Source: Streptomyces armeniacus | GTDB taxonomy: Bacteria > Actinomycetota > Actinomycetes > Streptomycetales > Streptomycetaceae | DNA length: 64,000 nt | Direction of reading: 5' to 3' | Assembly (NCBI RefSeq): GCF_003355155.1 | Contig: NZ_CP031320.1 | Coordinates: forward strand, 978,369-1,042,368 | In this document: positions 11,401-14,400 of the stretch, one piece after another | How positions within the stretch are numbered: the stretch's first letter is position 1 | Layout: each line of letters begins with the position of its first letter | Made by a program: the position numbers and the translations under genes | Notes under the pieces: generated by a model | Database searches by the model: none | Seen by the model: the letters and a program-made list of their open reading frames with translations, nothing else | What the model was told of the DNA's origin: nothing

Positions 11401-14400
11401 CCCGGCGCCGTCCAGAGGCGCGCCCGCTCCGTCCACGGCCAGCGGCACGGCGCCCGCGGGAGGCCAACTCCCGTCCGCCGCCCGCTTCTCGCCCGGCGGC
11501 GCGGGCGGCGCGAGCGTCCCGGTGGCGTGCAGGCGCCACGGCCGCCCGCCCGCCGCGCCGTGCGGGCGCGCGTGGCAGACTACGGCCCGCCGCCCGTCGC
11601 CGTCCGCCCCGGCGACCTTCAGCTGTACGTCGACGGCCCCGTCCGCGGCGAGCGGCAGGGGCGCGGTCAGGGTGAGTTCGGCGAGTACGGGCGTCCCCGC
11701 CAGGCCGCCGGCGTGCAGGGCCATGTCGACGAACGCGGTCGCGGGCAGCAGCACGCCGCCCGCCACCGCGTGGCCTGCCAGCCACGGCTGCTCGCGCAGC
11801 GACAGCAGCCCGCTCAGCAGGAGGCCGTCGTCGTCCGCCGTCGGCGTGGCCGACCGGAGAAAGGGGTGCGCGGAAGCGGAGTCGCCGGAGGGAGGCGGAG
11901 GCGTGCCCGGACCGAGCCAGTAGCGGCGGCGCTGGAACGCGTACGTGGGCAGCGCCGTACGCCGCGGCCCGCGCCCCGCGAACACGCCCCGCCAGTCCAC
12001 GGGCACGCCGCCCGCGTGCAGCGCGGCCACGGTGTCGAGCAGCGCGTCCGGCTCCGGGCACGCGCCGCGCAGCGTCGGTACGACGAGGGGCTCGGCGGCG
12101 TCCGACTCCGGCGGCGGCGACGCGAGGCGGTCACGCGCCTGCTCCGTGAGCACCGCGTCCGGGCCCACCTCCACGCAGTGCGTCGCGCCGCGCTCCCGCA
12201 GATACGCCATCGTGCCGGCGAAGCGGACCGGGCGGCGTACGTGCTCCACCCAGAAGTCCGGCGAGTACAGCTCCTCGTCGGTGGCGGCACGGTCCGACAG
12301 GGCGGACACCAGGGGCAGTCGCGGAGGTGCGTAGGCGAGGCCGTACGCGACCGCCGCGAAGGCGTCCTGCACGTCCGCCGTGCCGCCGTCCGCGGGCAGC
12401 TCGTCCACCAGCCGGCCCCGCGCCGCCACCAGGGTGCAGGCGTCCGCGAGGGACAGCACCCCGGCGGCGTGGGCCGCGGCCACCTCGCCGGCGGAGTGGC
12501 CCGCCACCAGGCCGGGGCGTACGCCCCAGGACTCGAGCAGCCGGAACAGGGCCGTCTCCAGGGCGAACAGCGCCGGCTGCCCGTACCGCGCCGACCGCAG
12601 GAGCGCACCCTCCTGCGCGTCGCCCGCCGCGGACAGCACCTCCCGTAACGGCGTCGGCAGCAGCGGGTCGAGCAGCGCGCAGGTCTCGTCGAACGACCGG
12701 CGGAAGGCGGGGTACTGCGCGTGCAGGCCGTACAACTCCTGGCCCGTTCCGGGCCGTTGGCCGCTCTCCCCGGCGAAGAGGAGCACGAGGCGCCCGTTCT
12801 GCCGGGGCCCGCCCGTACGCACCTCGGGCCGCTCCCTTCCCTCGGCCACCGCCCGCAGGGAGCCGAGCAGTTCCCGGCGGTCGCGGGCCACGATCACGGC
12901 GCGGTGCTCGAAGGCAGTACGGGTCGTGGCCAGCGACCATCCGATGTCCGCCGGCCGTGCGTCCGGATCGGCCGCCACACGGTCGTGCAACCGGCGGGCC
13001 TGCGCCCGCAGTCCGGGCGCGCTCCGGGCGGACACCGGGAACGGCACGGGCAGCCCGGCGCCGTCGTCGTCGGGACCGTCGTCGGAACCGGCGGGCGCGT
13101 CCTCCTCCGGTGCCTGCTCGAGGATCACGTGCGCGTTCGTGCCGCTGATCCCGAACGACGACACCCCCGCGCGGCGCGGCCGCCCCGTACGGGGCCACTC
13201 CACCGCCTTGTCCAGCAGCGACACTGTGCCCGACGACCAGTCGACGCCGGGGTTCGGTTCCTCGGCGTGCAGCGTACGGGGGAGCGTCCCGTGCGCCATC
13301 GCCTGCACGGTCTTGATGACGCCGGCCACCCCGGCGGCGGCCTGCGTGTGGCCGATGTTCGACTTGACCGAGCCCAGCCACAGCGGGTGCTCCCGCGCCC
13401 CCTGCCCGTACGCCGCGAGGAACGCCTCCGCCTCGATCACGTCGCCCAGCCGCGTCCCCGTGCCGTGCGCCTCGACCGCGTCGATGTCCGCGGGCGCCAG
13501 CCCCGCGTCTGCCAGGGCCTGCCCGATCACGCGCCGCTGCGCCGGGCCGTGCGGCGCGGTCAGCCCGTTGCTCGCGCCATCCTGGTTCACGGCGGAGCCC
13601 GGCACCGCGGCCAGCACCGGGAGCCCGGCGCGGCGCGCCTCCGACAGGCGGCACAGCAGGAGCATGCCCGCGCCCTCGGCCCACCCCGTGCCGTCGGCGG
13701 ACGCGCCGAACGCCTTGCAGCGCCCGTCCGGCGCCAGCGCGCGCTGCCTGCTGAACTCGACGAACGACGAAGGGCCCGACATGACCGTGACCCCGCCGGC
13801 CAGCGCGTGGGTGCACTCGCCCCTGCGCAGCGCCTGCGCCGCCAGGTGCAGGGCCACCAGGGACGACGAGCACGCCGTGTCGACGGTGAGCGCCGGCCCC
13901 TCCAGGCCCAGGGTGTAGGCGATACGGCCGGAGGCGACGCTGCCCGCGTTGCCGGTGCCGACGTACCCCTCGAGGTGGTCCGGGATGGCGCCCCGGTTCG
14001 CGTAATCGCTGTACATCACGCCGGCGTACACACCGGTCGGCGAGCCGCGCAGCGTACGGGGGTCCACGCCGGCGCGTTCGACGGCCTCCCACGCCACCTC
14101 GAGCAGCAGCCGGTGCTGCGGGTCCATGGCCAGCGCCTCGCGGGGCGAGATCCCGAAGAAGGCCGCGTCGAACCGGTCCGCGCCCGCGACGAAACCGCCC
14201 TCGAGCACGTACGTACGGCCGGCCCGCCCCGGATCGGGGTCGTACAGCCCTTCCGTGTCCCAGCCCCGGTCGGCCGGGAACGGACCGATCGCGTCCACCC
14301 CGTCCGCCACCAGCCGCCACAGCCGCTCGGGGGAATCCACGCCGCCGGGATAGCGGCAGGCCATCCCCACGATCACCACGGGGTCGCCGTCGTCGCGGTC

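Follow-up and report, generated by a model that had tools for sequence, protein, structure and literature searches.

Inactive and truncated acyltransferase (AT) domains in polyketide synthases (PKSs) are already in print. In the pepstatin cluster, which works in S. albus, the PKS PepC is reported to carry a truncated AT (PMC12081711). Module 12 of the irumamycin synthase is reported to have an inactive AT to which a structural role was assigned as a proposal; the serine of its GHS motif is reportedly lost, and the neighbouring AT11 was proposed to serve the module (PMC11672594). PipC (PMC12828459) and BrnF (PMC13096860) are reported to be single modules without an AT of their own for which FabD supplies malonyl; both are classed as trans-AT and without an AT domain, and PipC carries an AT docking domain (PMC12828459). 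FabD was reported, with kinetics, to load the ACP belonging to a single PKS module without an AT (PMC12828459) and to serve the barnesin PKS (PMC13096860), and a transacylase of S. coelicolor to restore AT6-null DEBS (PMC6164871). The PipC ACP was also reported to acylate itself slowly at 25 uM and above (PMC12828459).

Here we analyse a window, meaning the whole stretch of 64,000 nucleotides that was studied (C1:978369-1042368 of a one-contig genome of 8,083,249 bases), that encodes a one-module PKS in a single gene with a shrunken AT. Like PepC, it is a single-module Streptomyces PKS with a truncated AT; the two are likened by description, and PepC differs in being a KS-AT-ACP protein inside an NRPS pathway (PMC12081711). 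It resembles irumamycin module 12 in its inactive AT and the proposed structural role, but it keeps the nucleophile serine and has no neighbouring AT (PMC11672594). In contrast to PipC and BrnF, it carries the remnant of an AT and belongs to a cis-AT family. The closest counterparts in architecture are one-gene AMP-ligase-ACP-KS-AT-DH-KR-ACP-TE synthases (loci L074-L086), in which the other motifs are alike; two relatives of this architecture align over 99-100% of their length at 64-65% identity. These relatives have a complete malonyl-type AT, whereas the window PKS does not. Our preferred reading, to which we would give a probability of roughly 0.6, is that a one-module PKS of cis-AT type is still used although its AT is no longer active, its second ACP (ACP2) receiving malonyl in trans, most likely via FabD.

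The reading frame runs uninterrupted on the minus strand to 8407 from either a GTG at 16290 or an ATG at 16263, the latter being the start used in the public protein P0001 (2618 aa). The original prediction, which came from inspection of the letters, held that the frame stays open through the junction in the AT and that the KS, DH, KR, ACP and TE motifs are intact, and both statements are borne out, with 2618 codons open and every one of these motifs recovered by a motif search. Pfam adds an N-terminal AMP-ligase-ACP loading part that was absent from that account. The KS, with its Cys-His-His, the ACP and the reducing domains are ordered as in the cis-AT relatives (table).

Features of the window PKS and of related genes elsewhere in the same genome (G000); positions without a prefix in the rows from the single-gene PKS to the thioesterase are window positions
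Feature	Position	Strand	Basis or remark
Single-gene PKS, AMP-ligase-ACP-KS-AT(remnant)-DH-KR-ACP-TE	8407..16263	minus	2618 aa; Pfam and frame
AMP-binding acyl ligase (loading)	14737..16218	minus	Pfam; motifs present
ACP1	14446..14658 (boundaries approximate)	minus	Pfam; LGLDSM present
KS	13264..14385	minus	Pfam; DTACS, EAHGTG and NIGHT present
KS-AT linker	12826..13263 (boundaries approximate)	minus	0/52 invariant sites changed
AT first half	12367..12825	minus	GESGQ at 12757-12771, GHSAGE at 12484-12501; 8/64 invariant sites changed
Deletion junction VQ/DAF	12366..12367	minus	Small subdomain and HAFH gone, a loss of about 68-69 residues
AT second half	12016..12366 (end approximate)	minus	Pfam; alignment
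DH	10981..11868	minus	Pfam; HAVAGGVLLP and HPALLDAAL present
KR	9796..10332	minus	Pfam; GGTGSLG and catalytic Tyr motif present
ACP2, proposed acceptor of trans-loaded malonyl	9289..9492	minus	Pfam; LGMDSL present
Thioesterase (TE)	8443..9045	minus	Pfam; GRSAGG and GDHF present
Second PKS with shrunken AT	L090:5216-10099 = G000:C1:5729215-5734098	minus	1627 aa
Stand-alone AT-remnant-TE protein	L091:5570-7201 = G000:C1:4908569-4910200	plus	
FabD-type protein	G000:C1:4147876-4148826		316 aa; Acyl_transf_1 over 3-279
Discrete AT-like protein	3392397-3393359 = L089:6398-7360	plus	GLSLGG motif; adjoins large PKS frame

The Pfam profile Acyl_transf_1 matches the window AT in two pieces, covering profile positions 3-135 and 199-317 of 319, and the 22 residues that separate the two halves confirm the predicted absence of the segment with the catalytic His. 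Among 495 database ATs, the window AT included, the median spacing is 91 and the next lowest value after that of the window AT is 65, in a count that requires recognition of both halves and that strongly eroded ATs may therefore escape; a further 21 database ATs fell outside it with no second half in range, 5 of them intact-looking and 16 near a protein end. ATs of the same genome have spacings of 88-101 (26 measurements, 30 AT loci), and among 120 AT fragments the spacing was measurable in 116 and normal in all 116. By spacing the loss amounts to about 69 residues, and to 68 codons against L082 and L084, so that the segment loss stands while its size is slightly smaller than the 80-90 residues first suggested. 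In AT structure the missing stretch corresponds to the small subdomain, which bears the active His. A simple deletion between two GAC codons, with L082 as the ancestor, was considered and rejected because one extra codon would remain.

The two motif statements of the prediction were also correct, GQGSQ being changed to GESGQ and the nucleophile motif GHSAGE being kept. GESGQ was found once, in the window AT, among 521 scanned ATs. It differs from GQGSQ by three base substitutions, which suffice to account for it, and a pair of compensating frameshifts was accordingly rejected. When the features of a complete AT are considered together (GQGxQ, GHSxGE, the small subdomain and the active His), GHSxGE alone is left in the window AT. 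With the His and the small subdomain gone, the oxyanion motif changed and, as described below, a substitution excess centred on the AT, the domain is almost certainly dead as a catalyst, and the claim that it cannot load its own extender unit gains support from the sequence. Judged by sequence, the module has no catalytic AT, which is one feature of trans-AT synthases.

Alignment with modular ATs, as had been proposed, shows that the relatives examined all keep the segment that the window AT lost. A same-architecture set of 31 other proteins (2500-3000 residues, with ligase and TE domains, among P0008-P0120) was drawn from the best 120 of 3313 protein matches, and GQGSQ, GHSxGE and HAFH are kept in 31/31 of these relatives from the best 120; the organism names visible among them are all Streptomyces. 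The HAFH motif marks malonyl-type ATs. For orthologues, 392 genomes of the genus were searched with the AMP-ligase part as the query, and 14 other genomes gave a match at 1e-170 or better, of which 13 form the orthologue set and one (G143), with a short frame, was left out. GQGSQ or GQGAQ, GHSVGE and HAFH are kept in 13/13 of these orthologues, some of which may coincide with genes of the set of 31. The KS of the window PKS has a mean identity of 0.87 to the KS domains of the 31 same-architecture proteins, whose ATs are complete, and this resemblance tentatively points to the cis-AT type. In the public clustering at 90% the window protein is alone in its cluster. When 57 queries from the window, namely its 55 called genes plus two additional frames, were compared with the 14 loci for conserved neighbours, the PKS alone matched, and a single gene family is common to neighbourhoods of the 14 PKS loci, in one pair. 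The one-gene ligase-PKS-TE synthases of the window and of L074-L086 are thus solitary genes in differing neighbourhoods, as if moved between strains singly.

Selection was followed along the gene in three ways. Invariant sites, taken as the positions identical in the other 31 same-architecture relatives, are changed in the window protein at 8/64 positions in the first half of the AT, 1/32 in its second half and 19/805 outside the AT, the excess in the first half having a Fisher p of 4e-4. Among the changed first-half sites are the Met of GMG and positions 2-4 of GQGSQ, and no other of the 31 relatives exceeds 3 changed invariant sites in this half. Domain by domain the changes number 0/86 in the KR, 0/70 in the TE, 0/52 in the KS-AT linker, 6/255 in the KS and 6/176 in the ligase. 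In a branch test with the tree fixed from non-AT sites (40 resamplings, about 5-95% ranges), the window branch evolved at 1.99 times expectation (1.26-3.5) in the AT first half, rank 1 of 14 long branches. The ratios were 0.99 for the KR, 0.78 for the DH, 1.15 for the TE, 1.17 for the ligase and 0.82 for the linker, with a mildly fast KS (1.40, 1.06-1.79) and an AT second half that is not clearly relaxed (1.31, 0.89-1.86). Values of pN/pS, which are rough given the large synonymous divergence (pS 0.36-0.46 from the 13 orthologues), were 0.53 for the AT first half of the window PKS against the 13 orthologues and 0.36 among the 13 themselves; the corresponding pairs were 0.54 and 0.50 for the AT second half and 0.22 and 0.19 for the KS, and in the ligase, DH, KR and TE they differed by less than 0.02. 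These comparisons of sites, branches and codons show a relaxed AT first half in a protein of which most other domains are still constrained like those of the relatives. The argument against decay that the prediction had drawn from intact motifs is strengthened in this way, with no relaxation in the KR, DH and TE, and because most of the remainder is constrained as in relatives the synthase is probably still in use.

A source of malonyl would then have to lie outside the module. The genome search for a free-standing AT that had been proposed gave 47 PF00698 matches, among which are two stand-alone AT-like proteins of ordinary length, neither of them near the window. No other PF00698 match lies within the 64-kb window, and a discrete AT encoded beside the PKS was not found there; the nearest other matches, at 766214-781778, belong to frames 1156 and 3131 aa long and lie at a distance of over 190 kb. 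One of the two stand-alone proteins is of FabD type, and its gene adjoins genes for the NCBIfam families beta-ketoacyl-ACP synthase III, acyl carrier protein and beta-ketoacyl-ACP synthase II. These neighbours pass the NCBIfam cut-offs (synthase II at subfamily level), whereas the protein itself stays under both of its own (fabD 174.3 against 260.9; mdcH 177.5 against 297.9), so that it is called FabD on the strength of its gene context and resemblance. The other is the discrete AT beside another PKS (L089), which is distantly like FabD and has a best solved-structure match of 53 bits. FabD can be expected in almost all bacterial genomes, which makes its presence here weak evidence. We nevertheless favour the FabD-type protein as the likelier malonyl donor, since the ATs of the relatives are of malonyl type (HAFH), FabD is a household enzyme and papers report that FabD loads AT-less single modules and restores AT-null DEBS.

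Six further shrunken ATs were met by chance, through partial Pfam matches or one query; their number is a minimum and implies no frequency. All six have lost the GHS serine, in contrast to the window AT, which keeps it, and some have lost more than the small-subdomain segment. The second PKS of this kind in the genome (L090) has GQGCGE as its nucleophile motif, lacks the small-subdomain segment, has its KS Cys replaced (DTGGSSS) and shows no ACP by Pfam, while the 3 relatives found for it in 294 other genomes have intact-looking ATs; its neighbours include a thioesterase gene and a tryptophan-halogenase-like FAD gene. The stand-alone AT-remnant-TE protein (L091) shares 56% identity with the end of a PKS from another genome (L102), where a shrunken AT and a TE come after the KS, with no ACP evident by eye. 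The remaining cases lie in PKS modules of G075 (L110), G029 (L111), G080 (L112) and G082 (L109); all four stretches also contain an intact-looking AT, which in the multi-module PKSs L109, L111 and L112, from three other genomes, shares a frame with the shrunken one. In L102, L103 and L105 (the G075, G029 and G080 cases) the KS keeps its DTACSSS motif. Where there are several modules, malonyl could be loaded by a neighbouring AT, by analogy with the proposal for irumamycin. PKS fragments that start or end inside an AT also occur in the genome of the window (L092, L094, L095 and L096), among them L095, a KS-AT frame that stops within its AT, and L092, a KS with 38 AT positions; L094 is near the chromosome end and, by eye, seems to have transposase-like genes.

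Such fragments bear on the view that the window gene is a young pseudogene, out of use and with the loss of the AT as its first hit. We hold this to be unlikely, while granting it real weight, given the other broken PKS pieces in the genome (e.g. L095, L092 and L091), a solitary gene without conserved neighbours and a slightly fast KS. The first half of the AT, however, had time to gather excess changes while the KR, DH and TE gathered practically none, 2618 codons are open and the remaining catalytic motifs searched for are all present. Because the damage is AT-centred and most other domains match the pN/pS of the relatives, whole-gene decay and an assembly collapse both fit poorly. That the missing AT segment is such a collapse seems highly improbable even for a sequence known from the assembly alone, since a collapse would not alter separate invariant sites that lie upstream of the junction, GQGSQ and GMG among them, the gene has a single AT with the joint in frame, and the genome consists of one contig and is rated 100% complete. 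The module might also be non-elongating, with ligase, ACPs, KR, DH and TE acting on the loaded acid without addition of malonyl, a scheme that would suit the lack of an AT partner within the window and the intact ligase and ACP motifs. We think it improbable, as all three KS catalytic motifs are kept with 6/255 invariant KS sites changed, and as a KR and a DH normally act on the beta-keto product of a KS.

The original prediction had left three options, which were an AT acting in trans, a domain reduced to a scaffold and a decaying synthase, and of these we infer that trans supply is the best supported, since most other domains are without relaxation and a FabD-type protein is present. A scaffold role of the remnant would be compatible with it, the linker having 0/52 invariant sites changed. 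Against trans supply it must be counted that there is no dedicated AT partner in the window, that the KS branch is somewhat fast and the AT second half not clearly relaxed, and that several other PKS genes of the same genome look broken, decay being common there. Under the reading of trans supply, a formerly self-loading malonyl-type cis-AT module has lost, in frame, the small subdomain together with the active His and has an eroded oxyanion motif; both changes are visible in the sequence, and from AT chemistry they would be expected to abolish the activity. The ligase would load an acid onto ACP1 and thence onto the KS, as the architecture leads one to expect, ACP2 would receive malonyl from an AT in trans, most likely the FabD-type protein, the KS would condense the two, the KR and DH would process the product and the TE would release it. 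The shrunken AT may now do no more than space or hold the KS-AT linker.

The case bears on how trans-AT synthases arose from cis-AT synthases. A genome study of algal PKSs treats a unimodular (iterative) trans-AT stage as the necessary intermediate of its model, one for which convincing evidence is reported to be scarce, perhaps owing to a short life (PMC4661987). We suggest, tentatively and as a possibility we would not yet back, that the window PKS is a living intermediate between the cis-AT and trans-AT states, with AT catalysis lost, the AT body and nucleophile retained, and FabD sustaining it. The small subdomain may commonly be lost early, as the segment is also missing in the six other shrunken ATs. 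A few phrases searched in the open-licence literature, which is a weak test of absence, returned no account of a one-module synthase without the small subdomain and with the rest constrained. For genome miners the case is a caution that a Pfam AT match does not equal a working AT. With one strain changed and the examined relatives unchanged, it also offers a before-and-after pair for assay. If the preferred reading is true, the case would show that a natural multidomain PKS can become independent of its own AT through the FabD of primary metabolism, a point of relevance to PKS engineering.
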